Below, piece by piece: positions 13,055 to 53,692 of a stretch of 64,000 nucleotides of DNA. The stretch covers positions 14,664,873-14,728,872 of the forward strand of contig OY755173.1 in NCBI GenBank assembly GCA_963576735.1, in the 5' to 3' direction. This DNA comes from Bedellia somnulentella. Its lineage: Eukaryota; Arthropoda; Insecta; Lepidoptera; Bedelliidae. Below the pieces are notes generated by a model. The model did no database searches, was not told the origin of the DNA, and saw only the letters and a list, made by a program, of their open reading frames with translations. Made by a program: the position numbers and the translations under genes. Within the stretch, counting starts at the first letter, position 1. Each line of letters opens with the position of its first letter.

Positions 13055-14301
13055 CACTCAGAAAATATTGCGAAAAAAGGTTTTAATGTATGAAACACTG
13101 GCCGGTTGTAATGTATACTGAAAATATGAGTCTTTATAAATAAAAAAAGGTACGTACCAATTTTAAAATTTCCCTCTTTATTTTTTACGAGCTATTTTAA
13201 ATTGTCGTGTCTTACTGAAAAATTAATCTGAGCCGGGAACATTTTCGCGCTATGATTTTTTACGATTTCAAATGTCGCTTAAAACCAGACGAATCATACG
13301 ATAGACTTCAAATGGCGTTTATGGATGAAGGGCCTTCCAAGGCAACCGTGTATCGTTGGTATAACGAATTCAAGCGTGGTCGATTAACTTTGCGGGATGA
13401 AGAAAGAAGTGGTCGCCCTCTAACAGCTGTTACGGATGAAAACGTTGTGGAAGTGAAAAATTTAATTTATGACAATAGGCGAATAACGTATCTAGAGATT
13501 CAACACATTATGCAGATTGGATCGGGAAGCGTTCATGAGATTTTACACGAACATCTTCACGTGAGGAGGATAGTTTCACGCTGGGTGCCACACAACCTCA
13601 CCGAGGTACAGAAACAGGCCCGGGTGGAATGGTGTCGTGATATGATTAATAAATTTGATGCTGGCTTGTCTCGGCGTGTTTACGACATCGTTACAGGTGA
13701 TGAGTTCTGGATCAATACGATTCAGAAACGAAGCGACCCCTACCAAAGTGAAGAGATCTAGAAGCGGTGGGAAGATTTTGATAGCAAGTTTTTTCAATAT
13801 GACTGGCTATTTGGTGTCAATTCCTTTACAAGATCAAAGAAGTATTAACGCAGACTGGTATACTACTAAATGCTTGCCATTAGTTTTCTCAGTTGTGAGC
13901 AACAATCGAGCAAACACAGGGCTCCGCGGGCTACTGCTTCACCACGACATCGCGCCCGCTCACACCGCGCTCAAAACGACGGACTTCCTGAACAGCATGC
14001 CGGTCAAACTCTTGGGTCACCCTCCTTACAGCCCTGACCTGGCACCGTGTGACTTCTTTTTATTCCCTAAAATAAAAAATCAACTCAAAAGGATATAATT
14101 TTCATCGCCGGAAGATGCGCTGTCAGTGTTTCAGCGGGCTGTAAATGAGGTGTCTGCGGCGGACTGGAAAAAGTGTTTCGAAAACTGGTTTAGACGTATG
14201 AAACTTTGTATAGATGCTGGTGGAGAGTACTTGGAAAAGATTTAATAAAAACATTTTTACCCATAGAACATTTTTTTTATTTTCGCAAAATTTTCTGAGT
14301 G
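13055..14301 (+). mobile_element. degraded mariner transposon 1
   Basis: Terminal inverted repeats CACTCAGAAAAT(A/T)TTGCGA at 13055-13074 and 14282-14301 bound a 1247-bp segment holding a mariner transposase relic. The length is typical of mariner (about 1.3 kb). No clear TA duplication remains at the ends. Confidence 0.85.
13252..14245 (+). pseudogene. mariner transposase, frameshifted
   Basis: The N-terminal half (13252-13761) has helix-turn-helix sequences (ATVYRWYNEFKRG, DEERSGRP) and TGDEFW with the first catalytic Asp. After a frame break and deletion near 13720, another frame continues with LLHHDIAPAHTA (second Asp), HPPYSPDLAPCDFFLFP (third Asp), a stop at 14098, and a tail FENWFRRMKLCIDAGGEYLE to 14245. 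This is the DD34D signature of mariner. The missing segment and stops make it inactive. Confidence 0.9.
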
Positions 14302-22075: not shown

Positions 22076-22140
22076 AAGTAAAGAGTCTCTGGTTCAAGTT
22101 TAAGTGAACTTTAAGAGCAATTTTCTTATTACAAATAAGT

Positions 22141-22665
22141 AAAAAAGAAAAGGCGCGAATGGCAGTACTCAATGCTGCACTGGTTCTTACGCTGATGTAT
22201 GGTAGTGAATGTTGGGCATGGCAAAAGAGGCATGAAAGTAGAGTGAATGCAGTGGAAATGAGATCCCTCAGAGGTATATGTAATGTTAGGTTGTGCGACA
22301 GAGTGAAAAATAGTGTAATTCGTGAACGTTTAGGTGTGAAAGATGACGTAGTGCGCAAGATAGAGAAAGGAATGTTGAGGTGGTTTGGCCACATAGAGAG
22401 GATGGATGACACTAAATTGGTGAAAGAGATCTATAGAGCCAATGTGGAAGGTAATGTGAGTAGAGGACTACCACGGAGGAAACACCTGGACCAAATAGAG
22501 TGTGTGCTCAAAAAGGCCGGCGTCCGAAGTATGAAGAATAAAAGAGCATGTATAAGAAGAATGATGAATGTATCAGAAGCAAGAGAGATTTGCCTGGATC
22601 GTTCAAAGTGGCGATCTATAGTCTCCGCCAACCCCAATGGGAACAATGGGCGTGAGTAGAAGTAA
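22141..22665 (+). mobile_element. non-LTR retrotransposon 3' end, best preserved copy
   Basis: The uninterrupted frame 22159-22659 encodes the C-terminal part of a LINE polyprotein downstream of the reverse transcriptase core: LMYGSECWAW, VEMRSLRGICNVRLCDRVKN, MLRWFGHIERMDD and EAREICLDRSKWRSIVSANP. This MYGSECW...LRWFGH pattern is a very common end of insect LINE proteins. The element is 5'-truncated as usual, and lacks most of the reverse transcriptase and the endonuclease. I cannot fix the clade from this part alone. Confidence 0.85.
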
Positions 22666-27730: not shown

Positions 27731-30700
27731 CTGGAATTTAAGGGAAAAGTTTGTCACACTGGGTATGGAATAGTCGGTTATATTTAAAGGGCTAATGAAA
27801 TGCTAATTGGCCCAGACATTGAAGTAGGCTATCAAATACTTGGTCCAGGGCGCTGTTTCACCGGGATACTCGTTACGTGGGGCCTAGGCTATATAATACT
27901 GTTACATATAAACTTAGAAAAGGCATGTATTTAGATGAATTGCCGAGCCTTTTACTCGAAAAAAAAAGAAATGTCAACTTTAATCAACGTCCCTAGCATT
28001 TATAGCACTATATTTGAAATAATACTTCCTTGTTAAAGATTAATCAAATGCATCCCTCTTACACAAAAAAATATTTCTAATGTGAAACGGTACATAACGA
28101 TAACGTATAAAATGAAACTTTGTATTTTTCTTCGCTACTGATCATTGTACTTAACGTACATTTAAAGAAAATTTAAATTTCAACGAATCTCCTTTGGTAC
28201 AGCAATTATTTTAACTTTTAATCAATATCAAACATAGATTAAGATCACAAGTCTTAAGATAAGCTGGTATGATATTCATACATTAAAAATATCCTTACCT
28301 TAGCCTCATTACTGACTGTAGGTTTATTAGCAAACTGCACCTCAGTTGCTTTTAATATAGTATTTTCTTCTAAAATAGTGGCTTGACTCTGATTGTGGCC
28401 GAACGGTTTCTTGCCGTACAAGCATTGGTAGAATATCACGCCTACACTCCACACGTCCACCTTACTACTGATCTTTGGTGGGTTTTTGCCAACTACGAAG
28501 CACTCTGGTGGCAAATACCTGGAAAAAGCAGAACAGAATTTTTATTTGCAATGAACAGAATGGCGAGTGTTATTGATTTACTGTTGTTCATTATTAATTT
28601 TTAATACTAAGAACTACAGATTTACTACAAAACAGCATAATTTAAAAATTGAAAACATCGTTTATACAATTTTAGGTAAAAAAATACAATATATCCAATA
28701 TGGTTGTAACTGAATTGTTTTGAAACTTGCGTTGATATTGACCCTGATTCGGGTAGCTCCTGAATTATTTCTTTTTATTTTTTTAACAGTGTCTTTAATC
28801 AATAAATTCTTTTAAAATATTTACACACCAAATCGCAGAGCAGGCAAAGTTCATGTTCATAAAAGTAAAACATCTTGTATTGCCTACTGTTGTTTTAGCA
28901 AATCAACGATATAAAATTATTCAACCAACAATTACAGGCCAACAAAAGCACAAACTCACCAATAAGTGCCAGCGCCCTGGCTAGTGAGATCCATTCCATG
29001 GTCGGGGTTATAGTTCTCCTCGTCCATCACCTTAGACAAGCCGAAGTCTGTAATCTTGATTTCCCCACAAACATTGCCCTCCGTGAGCAAAATGTTGCCA
29101 GGTTTCAGATCGTAGTGGATCACTGGAGGCTTTATCTCGTTTAGATATTTGAGGGCTGACACCACTTGCATCACTATCGACCGGGCCTCTCGCTCCGGTA
29201 TTGTCTTGTGCTGTAATAAGAATTAGTTTTATTATGCGATTTGAGGATAAGCTTTAGATGGTTTGGGCTCTATATAATCATTTTATAACCAATCTATACT
29301 CACGGCTATAGTATCGCGATAGTAAGATCTGCATAGGTGTACTAATAAAAAACCGTAGATAAGTTATGCGCGCTCATAAGTGGCACTTAAAAAACAGGCT
29401 TAATGGCTCATCTGACTTTAGTCGCACACTAACTACCGTTGCAATCGAGAATGCCGTCGTGTGTGATGAGATTTTGCACAAACTATAGTAGAAAAACCAC
29501 TAAAATCATGGGATTACTTATCATTCGTAAGTATTATAAATTTACAACGTGCTGAACTGAAAACAAGCGTGCAGCAGCTGACGTGTCCTGCGAGACACGC
29601 GGCTGAGGCACATTATGCTGAGCCAGAAACAATTTGGCAATATGATATATGTGTTTTAATTTGTTGTTACTCAAACATTGTAAAAATTTTTTGCCAAATA
29701 AATTATTTTCTTTCTTTCTTTTAATTATAATTTATAATAAATTATTATAATAAATATTTAATTAAAATAAAATAAATTAGGTGTATCGTGTGTATAGATA
29801 GATCTAAATTATTCTTTGCCAAACGGTCGTCTCAGTGTCATATTTCACGTCGGTGCAGAGAAAATGTGTTTATCTCTTTTTAGCGCTTGCTATGACATGT
29901 GCTATCTCGCCTACATTTCAAATGTATTTCTTGGTGTGTTGTTTGGATATATTTCTAGTGGTGTGCGTACAACTGCCGCAATCCGTGCCACTCGAAAGCG
30001 CCGGTTCTCTCGTAAATAACCTATCTAACGTTTTTTGGTACATCTATGAAGATCTGGGTGACGAACTGCAGCCAATATTTAGATTAAGGCTATAAGAAAA
30101 CTCCCGCTGAGCGCATCGCGCGTCGTTTACTTAGTAGATTAATATCCGAATTACCCTAGGCCACCTCCTACATCAATAGAAAGATGTGGGATAATGGTAG
30201 CAGATTTAACTTTAAATAAATACTTTAGAAGATGAGTAAGCTTATGATATCTGGGATGGAAAGCGCGAGACATTAAAGGAAGAATGCAATAGGTAAATCC
30301 TCTAACCGGAGCAGTGAACAGCGTAAAAACCACGTCCTATTATCTTGCATCTGTTTTAGAAGATCATAGACCATATAAACATTACAAAAAGCTACCTGTT
30401 TCAAATAGAAATCGAGATCATGTCCGTTGCAGTACTCCAGCACCGTACAGAAAGAGTTCCCGTCTATTTCGAAGACGTCGTACAACTTGACGATCCGCGG
30501 GTGATCCAGAGCTTTGTGGATGTTGTACTCCCGCAACGCGTGTCTGGAAAATGTAGGGGAATATGTTTGTAAAATATGTATAACTTTTGTAAAATAAGTT
30601 TTAGAAAAAGCTAAAGAAAAAAAGATAATGTTTGATTTTTTGAAAGTAGTCTTAAGCTAAAAGGATAAGCAGGGTTCAATTTGTTTTTCCAGTCGCGCAA

Positions 30701-33700
30701 CACACTAGAGAGCAAGAATTAAATGCGATAGGGCGACATCTATAATGATTATGTCATGAAAACAAATGCTTCAAAATGTTCCAACGGTAGTCATACAAAA
30801 GCTCATTTTTAATGTCACTTTCAAAAAAGACTGCATCTTTACACTTTAAAACCAATTCCTTTTAACATATCCAAACCATCTACCGACATAACAAAAAATC
30901 ATGGCAAATAAACTTTAAAAGTAGATAGAAACTGGTGTCCGCAATACACACTCACTTAATATAGTTGGCCTTCTTATCCTCCTTCCAGTCTTTGTTGAGC
31001 TGGTGCACCTTGCACGCCGTGTACCTTTGCTCGCGGAGATCAAACGCTTTGTGCACTTCGCTGAAACCACCCTTGCCCAGCAGCATTAGCAGGAGGTATC
31101 TGCGTCAAAATATCACAATATTATAAATATTACAATAAATCATAAGTAATATAAAAGGCCAAGATTGTACTGGGTAAGCTCTGAGTTTGTTAAATTGCTT
31201 TCTACTATTCTTTCACCAATAGAAAACTACAGTGATATACTTAATGATTCGTGTAATCAAAGCTATGCAAGCGCGAAGGAAGTTTTATAGACTCGAAAGC
31301 ACAAAACTGCTACACAACTGTAAAATATCTTATATCTGGGAATAGATAATGTTGAGGGAGTCCGTACTCTCAGGTTATAATTCGATGGGCGTCGTAAGGA
31401 AGCTAAGCATCAAGATTTAGACAATTTTGTGTCGAGTCAGAATCATCTCCAGAATAAAAAAAGGTTCTGTAGCTAAGGTTTGTCAGTCAAAAGTTTCTTG
31501 AGTTTGAGGGTATGACAGTCACAGATGTTTCATTGTTGTTTTAAATAACAATTACATTCTATGAATCTGAACGAAAGCTATGGCAAAATACCGATTTTGA
31601 TCTGATTTCCAACACCAAGTTAACTAACCTACATGATATCAAATCTATGATACGTCACACACTAAAACCTTGAGCAACACAGAAGAGGGGCAAGAAAAGA
31701 TTTACTGCCCGCGTTTAAAACATTCGCTTTCTTAATGAGGCCAACAACATTTATACAGACTGCATTTCCAACAACTCTGAGAATGTTTCCATAATCTGAA
31801 TCAACTTAAAATTTTAGAATATTAAGTATTAATATTATACTATAATAACTGCAATATGAACTGAGTCGTTAAAGCAAATATTTTTCTTATATCTCCTTTG
31901 CACTTAACGTTCTCAGCGCTCTGCTAATTCTTTATTTCACTTTGACGACTCAGTTTATGTAGCGCCTACTATAGTTCTAAAGATTTTATAGAAACAGTCC
32001 GAGAAAGTTATTGCTTAGCCGGGTACGGATTGATGTAACGCAACATGCGATGTAACACGAAGAGGTAATTTCATAAGTGTGGACGAAGCGCGCAAGAACC
32101 GAGCATTTGCAACGACAATTTCATTCGTATCTCTTCTAACACATTTCAACATATATTTCTGTCTCGCCCGCTCAAAACGAACATTTGATGATTTCAACGA
32201 TTACCGTTGGTTTTATCGACTAGTAAGCGCCATGATTATTTATATTAATCTTTGTTTGGACGTTCGAAGCGTCGATTGCGACAAGAGTATATTTTCTAGA
32301 CAGTTAAAAGGTACGGACGAAGATATCGTTGTCAATTTGAAGAGTAGACTCCCCGTTTAAGAAATGTGCGCGCCGAACAGTATGCTGAGAACACGCTAAT
32401 GGATCAAGACGACAAATTAAATAACCCGTGCAATTGCTATGTCTTCCATTGCCCGCGCTGACACTTCACGCAGTGTCCGCAAAATACGACAAATAAGGTC
32501 TCGCGGCGCAAAAGAAACTCTGTTCGTACGCAATGAGTGTACACGGCGTCCACACTTCAGAAATTTCATCGCAATATAGTCAACCAGTTAAACTTGCTAC
32601 ATCGCATGTCTAGTCGTATGTGTCAGTCATACCGGCCAGTTGTGCCCCGCAGCGCGGCGTCCGGGCCCGGCGGCCGGGGCACGGCGCGGCCCAGCATGCA
32701 CTCGCCGGCCAGCCCCACAGAGTGGCCGAGCCTTGCAACAAACAATGCCGGGTCATTCTGTGAGCTAAGGACCTATTGGAAGCCTACCAATTGCGTTTTG
32801 ATTCTGCAAGTTTCTTCGTTACTTTGCTGTGTGCTCATTTACTGCTCGCTAAGGACCTATTTGAAGCCTACCAATTGCGTTTTGATTCTGCAAGTTTCTT
32901 CTGTGCTCATTTACTAGGGACTTATCGTAAGCGTGACAACCCTACTATGAAAATCATAGAGATTTGAAGTTTCTTCCTACCCTTTAGAAATAAGACAACC
33001 CTACTAAGATTGAATTGTGTTTTGATTCTGCAATTTTCTTCATTACTATGCTGTGTGCTCATTTACTTGGGACTTGTAAAGCGTGACAACCCTACTATGA
33101 AGTTCATAGAGATTTGAAGTTTCTTTCTACTCTTTAGAACTAAGACAACCCTACCAATAGATTGAATTGCGTTTTGATTCTGCAAAGTTTCTTTGTCCTA
33201 ACTTCTAGTCTGTCGAGTTTATAGGAAGTTATACGTACCTCTAACTACGCATCAGACTTGACAAACTTCTTGATAGTACAGACAACTAGACACTGGTTCT
33301 TTTATAATTCGGTTTGTAAAGTTACGTCATAGTTGCTGCGATTCAAAAGGTTTGACACGGCGATGATAAATATACCTAAACTAAGATAAAATGAATCGTA
33401 CAAGGCAATGCTGCAGATCACATATAGCTTCATCACTCAGAAATCAGATCTTGGACTTGGACACAATATACAGTTTCACCTAACAAAAACTAAAATGCCT
33501 AGAAAATAAATACTTAGCCTAACAATATAAATCTAAGACATTGCATTAAAAGTACAGTCTTACCGTTCAGAAAGCACAGGGTGTTGTGAGAATCGACTCT
33601 GGTCCTCATTGTGGATTCTCTTTAGTTCCCTAATATGAAGGTTTCTTTCACGCTCTAATTTCTCCATCTCCAACTGGAGATCTGCATCTTCTTTCTTGAG

Positions 33701-49060: not shown

Positions 49061-49366
49061 TATTCAATCTTATTTAATCAGGTGTTGAGCAAATAAAAAA
49101 TCGTTCAATTTACTAGCAACATGTTTTTACACAAATAGCATACCTCATTTTATTTATTATTAAATACTATTTCTATTCGATGTGGTAAGGCTGTGGTACT
49201 TGACTTTACGTGTTTTCTTCAAATGTAATGTATTTTTTTTTAAATCTTGCATGGCTATATAAAATTGGTTGTGATGTTAGTGAACACCGAGATCTTAGCA
49301 TAAAATAAGAATCAAGCAATAACAGGTAATTAGGCTGATGCAGATTCATAAAAGATCTGTACATCG

Positions 49367-49403
49367 CACAGTGATTCGCGTAGAACAAGCTAGATGGACA
49401 AAA
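49367..49403 (+). repeat. left terminal inverted repeat, recombination-signal-like
   Basis: Heptamer CACAGTG at 49367-49373, 24-bp spacer, then ACAAAATTA at 49398-49406. The first six bases match the nonamer consensus ACAAAAACC. Confidence 0.85.
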
Positions 49404-49658
49404 TTATTTTTCGACTCGAATGGCTCTATATGTGCTTAATCATACGTATTCTGTACTTTTTTTTACATTTCATGACTTAAGGTAAATGTGAGGGGGGTAG
49501 TGTAAATAAAAATTAAAAAAATGAAAAAAAATATATATATTAAATGCAAAAATCATGATTTCTTCCACATTAAACATTTTTCTAAACTTAAAACTAATAT
49601 GAAAAACAAATGTTTACAAGTCAGTTACTCAAAAAATAATATTCTATATATGTTACAA

Positions 49659-50861
49659 TCACTCCCTATCACTATCATCATCTGAAGAATCCGCCTCATG
49701 ATCTTCTAATTTCTGTTTGTAGGTACTGTGGCCGGAACTACCGTCACAGCCCCACTTACTTATTAAAGTGAATGAAGAATTTTGTGGAAGCACACTTCTT
49801 ATAACTTCTTCCTGTGTTTTTACTAATCTCTCAGCAGTTTTGTCTAAAATCGATTGTAGCTTAATTTCTGCGCGTGTTTCCGTTACAGAAATGTGCTCCG
49901 AAGGGGGATAACAGGATAAAAAACACTTACGTATACTATAGTATGATGGTAACACTTTATGTCCCGCCTTCATTTTCCACTTCCTCGTAGCTTTGTACGT
50001 GTGACTTGTACACTTAGCGTCCATATAATAGGCACACGTTCCAATATTGGTGTGAAGTCTTCCATTAGGGCAGGATACATTTTGCTCAAAACTTGTACCA
50101 TCACTCGCTCGTTTTATAGCTTGGGCAACGTTCCGCTTGCCTTCCGATCTACTAGCTACTTCTGCAGCAATTGCCAACTCTTTTGCACTCCATTCAGAAA
50201 CGATGCCGTCCACACGTCGTTTTTTTGTTTTATATGATGACTCCTCAAAGCTCTTTTGAGGTCTTCCCGGTCGCTGAGCACCCTCAGTAGAAGTGGTGGC
50301 AACTGGAGGGTTAACAGACACCTTGAAATGAAAGTCTGTGCCTTCCAGCCATGTTTTATGCATAGAGAGAAACCTTTCCCTAATGCGACTAGCACTATTC
50401 CATTTCTGGGCTATTTTCGTGCTACTAGCAGCGATGCTCTTGGTGATTTCACGCAAGGATACTTCGGTTATATTTGAGAGATCAAATTTAACCGAAAGAA
50501 AATCGAAAATGCGTGAATTTCTGTTTTCTTTATCGTGTTTGATCCACTCTTCGAAAAATTTGATTTTCGAAACACTAAGCACTTGCTCTGTAAAAAAAAA
50601 TAAAAAAAATGTTAGAGCAAAAAAGGAGCATGGAAAGTGATGTTTAATATTAAGTTTAGGCTTAGATCTACGACATATATAAAATCTAACCCGGAGACAT
50701 GTGGAGACAAAAAGTTGCAGTCTATAAAACATTTAAAAAATATTATTTTTTTTGTGTTTTTCCCACTATCCTTTAGACCGTAAAATTTTATTGGATTTAG
50801 TTACCTAGGAGTAAGATTTCTATAAAAATATAATGTTCTTACCTGTACTAATAGGATCCAT
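49659..50861 (-). CDS. RAG1-like transposase N-terminal half (315 aa, two exons)
   Basis: Exon 1 is 50861-50843 (MDPIST), intron 50842-50588 with GTAAGA...TTTTACAG, exon 2 50587-49659 with stop TGA. Exon lengths of 19 and 929 nt give exactly 315 codons plus stop, with no interruptions. Visible parts: a GRPQK motif at residues 114-118 followed by a basic run KTKKRRV, recalling the GGRPR nonamer-binding domain of RAG1; a VLPSYYSIRK...CYPP segment at about 218-235, resembling the core linker of RAG1 where a similar LRNAEKVLLPGYHP block occurs; and SFTLISKWGCDGSSG with Asp288, in the place of the CDG that holds the first catalytic Asp of RAG1. Only 27 acidic, Ser-rich residues follow, so the other two catalytic acids are missing. 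Probable function: DNA binding without cleavage. The homology is remote and my inference. Confidence 0.7.
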
Positions 50862-50895
50862 AGCACAAAACACTGATTCGTTTACTGCACAAGTC

Positions 50896-50984
50896 ATGAG
50901 GTGTTGTCGAATGTGTGGCAAAATTGCAACTGAGACGATTACAAATTAGTAATAATCGTCATTACTTACCCTTTAACACCTCAT
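50896..50984. promoter_or_regulatory. inverted repeat in the presumed promoter of the RAG1-like ORF
   Basis: ATGAGGTGTT at 50896-50905 and its complement AACACCTCAT at 50975-50984 lie 35 to 123 bp upstream of the ORF start. This could be a binding site or hairpin; no function is known. Confidence 0.3.
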
Positions 50985-51088
50985 TAGCAAGCCATAACGG
51001 GACTTTGCACAATCAATTCTTGGAAATGAGATAATAGGGTTGTTCTTGACAACATAAAACGATCAATTCCAGGAAATTGGACAATGAC

Positions 51089-51125
51089 TTTTGTCCACCT
51101 AGCTTGTTCTACGCGAATCACTGTG
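51089..51125 (-). repeat. right terminal inverted repeat, recombination-signal-like
   Basis: Read on the minus strand: heptamer CACAGTG at 51125-51119, 24-bp spacer, then ACAAAAGTC at 51094-51086, seven of nine matching the nonamer consensus. Confidence 0.85.
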
Positions 51126-52079
51126 CATCGCTTCAAAAACAACTGTCGAAATATGGGGCAGGTTGACAGCTCAACATATTTTTAGATGCCGATAATGAGA
51201 ATTTCAGCACGACACAGCAAGAATTACCAGAACTTATACTTTCATTACATACCTGAAGTGAAGAATTTTTAACCTACATTTATTATTTTAGCACACATCT
51301 TAAGCAATAATTTTCAATACATATTTACTATTTTTTGCACTACAAATATTTAAGGGCGCTACTTATTTGAGTAAGCAGATGGTCGTATATGACATCATTC
51401 TATAAATAGTCTCAATAATATGGATATAGAAAACATCATTAACTGCTCAACAAATATAAATGTGGTTTACGACAATACATATAAAAGGTTTGTGTTATCT
51501 TGAAAAGAGAGGATGAGACGTTGTCTATAGTCTTATTGTGACCTTAAATGTGGTTTTCATGGTAATAATATCTATAATATCCAAGCTAACTATTTACAAG
51601 AGATGGAAAATGCTTAGATAGACTCAAGAAGTTAATGTGGAGTCGGTCATCCTGCTGAGGGTTCAGGTAGTATTACATATTAGTAGTATTTACTTTTTAT
51701 TGTATGTTTTATATCTCCACTCTTTGCATAGTTAATGTATGTTACGAAGACTGTGTGTGTATTAAGTGATAGGTTAGCAATAGAAGAGTGAAAACCCAGC
51801 CTCAACGGTCCTTCATACTGCCATGCTGTTCCTTTTCGGTCGTAGAAAGGCTGAGGGTCTTTTGTTCCTTGCCCGTGGCTACTGTTGGGATTTACGTCGA
51901 AATTATAAGTTAATAGTCGATTGGGTGATTTTTGGCCGTTTGGAAAACCCACTAAGAGGGGGTCGGAATTTGTATATAGATTGCTTCCTAATATCTATTC
52001 GTCAATATAAACTATTGTGGAAGTAAAGTAAAAATAAACAGTTACGGATATATACATACTACTCTGTGTAAAAAGTATC

Positions 52080-52445: not shown

Positions 52446-52631
52446 TGTAAAAAGTATCAGGAATATGTAAATAAAAAGACCCGCGTAAAAGAGGTCGTTC
52501 AAATTTTTTTACTGCATGTTGGTAGCACTGTACTGATTTAGCGCGCAAAATTTGAGCGGGATCTGTCATTTAGTTTGTTTTAAACTACATTTTTTGTTGG
52601 TCATAGTTTTGAGTCCTCGGCGATTTTTACA

Positions 52632-53692
52632 ATGGAAAATATTGTTGAACAAAGAGTGTGCCTTAAATTTTGTGTTTCGAATGATATTTCATGTGGTGAA
52701 TCACTAAAAATGTTGCGAAATACCTACGGCGAATCGTGTAAATCGAAAACAAGGGCTTATGAATGGTATAAGGCTTTTAAAGAAGGCAGAGAAGTAGTAG
52801 TAGACTTGCCTCGTTCTGGTAGACCTTCAACCGCTACGACCAAATTCAAATTCAAATATATTTATTGCAAGTCACATTGTGGGATTAGGATTACCAAAGA
52901 AAACATCGACAGAATCAAGAAGCTAGAGCTCGAAAATCGACGTATGAGTCAGAGAGAGTTGGCTTGTGAGGTGAACATATCTTTTAAGTCCGTCCACAAC
53001 ATTCTCATTGACATTTTAGGCATGAAACGCGTCGCCGCTCGACTAGTTCCAAAAGAGCTCAATTTTGTTCAAAAAGCGCAGCGAAAGCATGTCGCTGAAG
53101 ACATGGTTTCCCGAGCTTCTACGGATCCGACCTTTATGAAACGTATAATAACTGGCGACGAGACATGCGTTTATGAGTACGACATGCAAACAAGCCAACA
53201 GACTTCAGAATGGCGTCTCGAAAACGAGCCGAAACCCAAAAAACCGCGGCAAAGTCGCTCCAAAATCAAGGTGATGCTGACAGTTTTTTTTGACTACCGT
53301 GGTGTGGTTTACTCCGAATTCCTTCCAGAGGGAGAAACAGTGAATAAAGAATATTATTTAGGCGTCATGAAGCGTTTGCGTGAGAGTATCCGCCGAAAAC
53401 GTCCAGATTTGTGGCAACACAACTCATGGATGCTGCACCATCACACACAGCCATTATAGTGAAAGAGTTTTTAGCGAAAAATTCAACAAAAGTTCTCGAC
53501 TAAGCACCGTATTCACCTGATATGGCTCCATCTGACTTTTTTTTATTTCCCAAGTTAAAATTACCACTTCGAGGAAAACGTTTTGAGTCGATAGAAGCCG
53601 TAAGAAAAGAAAAGAAAGTAAGAAAAGAAAATTCGCTGAATGAGCTAAAGGCCATACCGCAAATAGCCTATGAAAAATGTATGGAAGACTAG
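52632..53692 (+). pseudogene. mariner transposase 2, nearly full length, broken
   Basis: The frame 52632-53459 encodes helix-turn-helix regions (KTRAYEWYKAFKEG, LPRSGRPST), MKRVAARLVPKELNF, ITGDETCVYEYD (first Asp) and the WRLENEPKPKKPRQSRSKIK block typical of mariner. About 17 residues (KFKFKYIYCK...) from a small in-frame insertion interrupt the linker after RPSTATT. Near 53432 a short deletion removes the second catalytic Asp block and shifts frame. The rest continues with an internal stop to APYSPDMAPSDFFLFPKLK (third Asp) and ends at 53692. Confidence 0.92.

Follow-up and report, generated by a model that had tools for sequence, protein, structure and literature searches.

The window analysed is a 64,000-nucleotide stretch of contig OY755173.1 of the lepidopteran Bedellia somnulentella. 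It contains a transposon of 1,759 bp (49367-51125) lying inside two copies of a 5-bp target-site duplication, CATCG (49362-49366 and 51126-51130). Each terminal inverted repeat consists of CACAGTG and a 24-bp spacer, followed by ACAAAATTA at the gene 3' end (49367-49403, plus strand) and by ACAAAAGTC at the gene 5' end (51089-51125, minus strand). These 37-bp ends have one mismatch, and the inverted arms run to 47 nt at 89% identity. The outer 27 nt were found at just two sites within the window and at none in 100 shuffles. Ends and perfect duplication are as given in the preliminary description, which had called the transposon intact; this holds for its ends and duplication but not for its gene, which is internally deleted.

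The gene lies on the minus strand, where a frame of 357 codons between stops extends from 50732 to 49659. Removal of a predicted intron (50842-50588), with GT..AG borders and a pyrimidine tract, would join predicted exon 1 (50861-50843; MDPIST and the first base of an E codon, a start like that of relatives P0003 and P0007) to exon 2 (50587-49659, with the stop codon at its low end, from the open reading frame and relatives), giving the same 315-residue protein as described beforehand. The RAG1-like order of motifs reported in it (GRP basic run, LPSYY..CYPP, CDG) is correct. In a structure alignment, the GRP-basic region (50076-50261, minus strand) coincides with RAG1's nonamer-binding domain (RAG1 from about residue 392), and a GRP-bearing, nonamer-binding-like domain has been reported in Transibs, according to the available text of PMC9435367. 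The GRP-basic region is followed by a region (49776-50063, minus strand) whose counterpart in Hztransib and RAG1 is the dimerisation/DNA-binding and pre-RNase H part, and by the codon for the first catalytic Asp (49743-49745, minus strand; residue 288 of the spliced protein), which aligns with Hztransib D126. An N-terminal domain of about 92 residues (50310-50585, minus strand) was modelled with confidence (pLDDT 96.8) and lies outside the solved Hztransib chain; a structure search with this domain gave no convincing relative.

The window frame matches 49 proteins in the protein database, and Hztransib (6pqn) with an E-value of 1.6e-19 (residues 239-350). Longer relatives in the alignment have about 300 residues more past a YKQK motif. 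The window protein runs from this motif straight into an acidic end, DSSDDDSDRE, which resembles the ends of its relatives. The DDE triad is incomplete, the first D being kept and the second Asp and the Glu gone. Judged by its sequence, the window protein is a Transib transposase fused, past the region of the first Asp, to its own acidic C-terminal tail and, as the second Asp and the Glu have been deleted, the window copy is a non-autonomous Transib derivative.

Elsewhere in the window, two plus-strand frames (13219-14098 and 52584-53459) resemble mariner-type transposases by eye, and a third (22108-22659, plus strand) looks, again by eye, like the final part of a LINE-type reverse transcriptase. 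Exons at 28457-31077 on the minus strand (about 31.1-28.5 kb) are presumably those of the kinase domain of a tousled-like kinase (TLK), judging by motif letters.

Sister copies and the internal deletion

A genome search for copies, in which 40 of 320 candidates were scored, gave at least 84 matches. Forty copies were read and the 39 with both ends were analysed, L014 (with no recognisable end) being left out. The 39 comprise 35 copies of about 2.9 kb and four of 1,755-1,759 bp. Searching the genome for the termini and for relatives of the protein, as the preliminary description had suggested, turned up dozens of near-identical full-length copies. Pairwise divergence among the 35 averaged 0.26% (0.14% from the majority); the full-length family is a young burst. 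A frame of 693 residues is present in 29 of them, two more (692 and 694 residues) are open to the same end and four are broken. D288, D392 and E599 were kept in all 28 full-length copies examined. The terminal inverted repeat at the gene 5' end is the same 44 nt in 39/39 copies having both ends. All 39 gene-5' ends begin with CAC, as do 38 of the gene-3' ends, the remaining one beginning with CGG. The exact outer 27 nt of the element occur 302 times in the genome (156 on one strand, 146 on the other), indicating the presence of about 150 elements.

Against L007, a full-length copy, the window copy shows a match of 98.3% over positions 1-1433; the match picks up again at about 2567, at 92.9% with indels counted. 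The sequence deleted amounts to 1,134 bp (378 codons) and was lost in frame, which is why the window protein has the first D alone. At the junction (49693-49697, minus strand), where position 1433 is joined in frame to about 2567, 1 bp is shared, or 5 bp with one mismatch. This junction is present at 11 places in the genome (10 exact, one with two mismatches). The truncated frame is open in seven of these copies (L001-L004, L087, L090 and L091) and disrupted in the other four, by a 153-nt insert in L086 and by 1-nt deletions in L088, L089 and L092, two of which also carry stops. Each of the four window-type copies of 1,755-1,759 bp has a different duplication. Over the 5' 1,433 bp that both have, they differ from full-length copies by 1.6-2.2%, indicating that the deletion comes from a sister lineage and not from the current burst.

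The same transposon has undergone another internal deletion, independent of the first, from 1350 to 2511; it was seen in L081-L085, of which three copies are about 1.74 kb and two about 2.1 kb, with an extra 3' insert of about 360 nt.

Affinity of the element and possible role of its protein

A full-length sister aligned with Hztransib (6pqn) over 451 residues (401 bits, E 6.4e-119), compared with 36 bits (E 2e-8) for the best RAG-type chain, amphioxus RAGL (6b40), and 35 bits for RAG1. D288, D392 and E599 align with D126, D225 and E436 of Hztransib, at an inferred chain offset of 17 (residue numbers from the part of PMC6941560 available). The protein database contains 525 relatives (120 of the 525 listed). 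The transposase gene occupies positions 265-2601 of the 2,901-bp full-length element, leaving about 300 bp, so that no linked convergent RAG2-like gene fits in it.

V(D)J recombination signals have a consensus heptamer and a consensus nonamer. Scored against these sequences, CACAGTG matches the heptamer at 7/7, bearing out the identity noted earlier. The ACAAAA that had been reported after the 24-bp spacer is a nonamer-like stretch at both ends, scoring 6/9 in ACAAAATTA and 7/9 in ACAAAAGTC. Shuffled ends equalled 7/9 in 0.55% and 6/9 in 4.2% of trials (spacers of 22-24 bp), so the likeness is a little above chance. A spacer of 8 bp also yields a 6/9 match to the nonamer and, as the two ends are near-copies, their matches are not independent. 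Set against the V(D)J layout, with its 12/23 spacers, the heptamer is exact, the spacer is 24 and not 23, and the nonamer is matched at 7/9 and 6/9. Transib ends have previously been described as heptamer/nonamer-like with symmetric spacers of 20-22 bp, in the accessible text of PMC8355894.

That the inverted repeat arose by chance, or belongs to an unrelated MITE whose open reading frame is accidental, was dismissed as vanishingly improbable given the genome-wide exact ends and the transposase homology: the short nonamer match is all that speaks for it, against homology to Hztransib, sister copies, 5-bp duplications and 27-nt ends that were matched in no shuffle and whose reversed control pattern occurs 0 times in the genome. 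The preliminary description had assigned the element, with its CAC ends and 5-bp duplication, to the RAG1/Transib lineage, and homology and copies agree; it had gone on to propose an undescribed RAG1-like family distinct from classical Transib. Such a family might be expected from the heptamer identical to the consensus, the nonamer-like ACAAAA and the alignment of the GRP-basic region with the nonamer-binding domain of RAG1. However, the scores (401 bits with Hztransib against 36 with RAGL and 35 with RAG1) and the lack of room for a RAG2-like gene argue for Transib, and published Transibs have such ends and such a domain, in the available portions of PMC8355894 and PMC9435367, respectively. 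Profile and sequence comparisons with RAG1 and Transib, which had been called for, place the protein in Transib and rule out a separate family, which we regard as highly improbable. The relation to DDE enzymes is present, and full-length relatives share the 5-bp duplication. The window element itself is an ordinary Transib. It adds a copy, and probably a family not noticed before, to a known superfamily.

It is unlikely, though less so, that the 315-residue protein is a working trans-dominant repressor which, like KP, binds the ends without cutting them. It keeps the GRP and dimerisation/DNA-binding regions and lacks the second Asp and the Glu, its deletion is in frame, the frame is open in 7 of the 11 junction-bearing copies, and the second deletion class (1350/2511) likewise retains the N-terminal half. 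On the other hand, 4 of the 11 frames are disrupted, the 1350/2511 class is frame-shifted and both 2.1-kb copies read have broken frames. There were 14 nonsynonymous changes (two of them stops) and 8 synonymous among the 11 copies, giving no significant signal of selection retaining the truncated frame (P = 0.07 against neutral); a smaller count in four copies, 3 nonsynonymous to 5 synonymous (P = 0.013), was not upheld with all 11.

Target sites and tRNA-like repeats

Perfect 5-bp duplications flank 37 of the 39 copies, matching duplications being absent in L011 and L031. They represent 21 different target words with the consensus CGWCG (position counts C 30, G 29, A/T 28, C 26 and G 33; n = 37). 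Transib targets are GC-rich and of the CGNCG type, and those of the present family match this type.

Comparison of flanks revealed that several insertions cluster in a repeat, some 311 bp long, containing a tRNA-like sequence. Six of the 37 duplicated insertions (L009, L018, L024, L034, L035 and L040) lie at one point in it, reading GGCAGAG-CGWCG-GGG, with CGTCC on that strand in one copy. When flanks were joined, ARAGORN recognised an uninterrupted tRNA in four of the six (4/39 overall), the duplication being tRNA positions 26-30; the remaining two were located by the A-box motif. Three insertions are with and three against the orientation of the tRNA. Private substitutions differ among the six, and L009 and L024 share three. 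The deletion derivative L002 is probably a seventh insertion at this point, in a rearranged unit, while L028 and L017 lie elsewhere within the same repeat. The left flank of L034 contains an uninterrupted unit (tRNA-Asn by ARAGORN; Rfam tRNA, 46.6 bits). Aligned with it, the two flanks of L009 after joining match at 89% across 390 columns, junction included. This unit is a paralogous empty site for L009, with a single copy of the duplication.

A target matrix built on the 28 insertions outside the tRNA-like repeat ranks the seven tRNA points among the top 0.006-0.09% of positions, and so the motif accounts for part of the clustering. A background of 184 kb (the window and 40 random 3-kb pieces) contains 128 CGWCG and one tRNA point of this kind. 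With this one background site, the number expected at tRNA points among 37 insertions is 0.3 from the CGWCG share and 0.2 from the matrix; taking the background count, still of one site, at its upper 95% bound raises these values to 1.6 and 1.1 (P = 0.005 and 0.0008, in a post hoc test). It is possible, if somewhat doubtful, that the RAG1-like transposase markedly prefers one point of tRNA-like sequences, the boundary between D-arm and anticodon stem, beyond the CGWCG motif; on this reading the six insertions are independent events. A preference for tRNA-like repeats is unmentioned in those parts of PMC8355894 and PMC6941560 that were available. The shared insertion point is the one feature here likely to surprise a specialist; if true, the hot spot would mean an unusual choice of targets in a relative of RAG, and would place a Transib beside Dada among DNA transposons favouring multicopy small-RNA genes.

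Proposed origin and related transposons

The window element is almost certainly a non-autonomous, internally deleted Transib, accompanied by a 2.9-kb sister family that is presumably autonomous. The sister family encodes a 693-residue DDE transposase which would cut at CAC ends and paste the element into CGWCG-like sites, creating the 5-bp duplications, and homology to Hztransib and RAG suggests hairpin chemistry in this cut-and-paste. Enzyme activity and splicing are predicted. The loss of 1,134 bp, in the window copy or an ancestor, took away the second Asp and the Glu together with the zinc-binding/C-terminal part, joining the remaining N-terminal part in frame to the protein's last residues. 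The deleted copy would then have been mobilised in trans through its intact ends. The near-identical full-length copies and their intact DDE frames make the sister family a candidate for a second active Transib beside Hztransib, and its N-terminal GRP domain, outside the solved Hztransib chain, makes the nonamer-like part of Transib ends biochemically testable.

The closest known system is Hztransib of Helicoverpa zea (6pqn and five more PDB entries), with transposase homology over 451 residues, aligned D, D and E, CAC ends and a 5-bp duplication. According to the available text of PMC1852546, the source for those ends and that duplication, Hztransib is 3,518 bp long with a deduced protein of 489 aa; the present protein has about 200 more N-terminal residues, including the GRP region, outside the solved chain, and the window copy is without the catalytic core. 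The Transibs of Drosophila and Anopheles (Kapitonov and Jurka) likewise have heptamer/nonamer-like ends, 5-bp duplications and a RAG1-core-like transposase (PMC8355894 and PMC6941560, as far as available), although the 24/24 spacers found here are just beyond the symmetric 20-22 bp quoted in the first of these. ProtoRAG/RAGL elements share CAC ends, 5-bp duplications and the common RAG1 core fold, but have convergent RAG1L and RAG2L genes, whereas RAG2L does not fit here. The precedent for a repressor is KP, a 207-aa polypeptide of the P element (accessible part of PMC4938643), in which an internal deletion similarly leaves an N-terminal DNA-binding piece and a short tail and the element is moved via intact ends; the P element belongs to another superfamily. 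Finally, Dada transposons insert, strictly target-specifically, at a fixed point in tRNA genes with duplications of 6-7 bp (PMC3706591). Some insertions of the present family likewise share one point in tRNA-like repeats; they are a minority (6/37), and the family's duplication is 5 bp.
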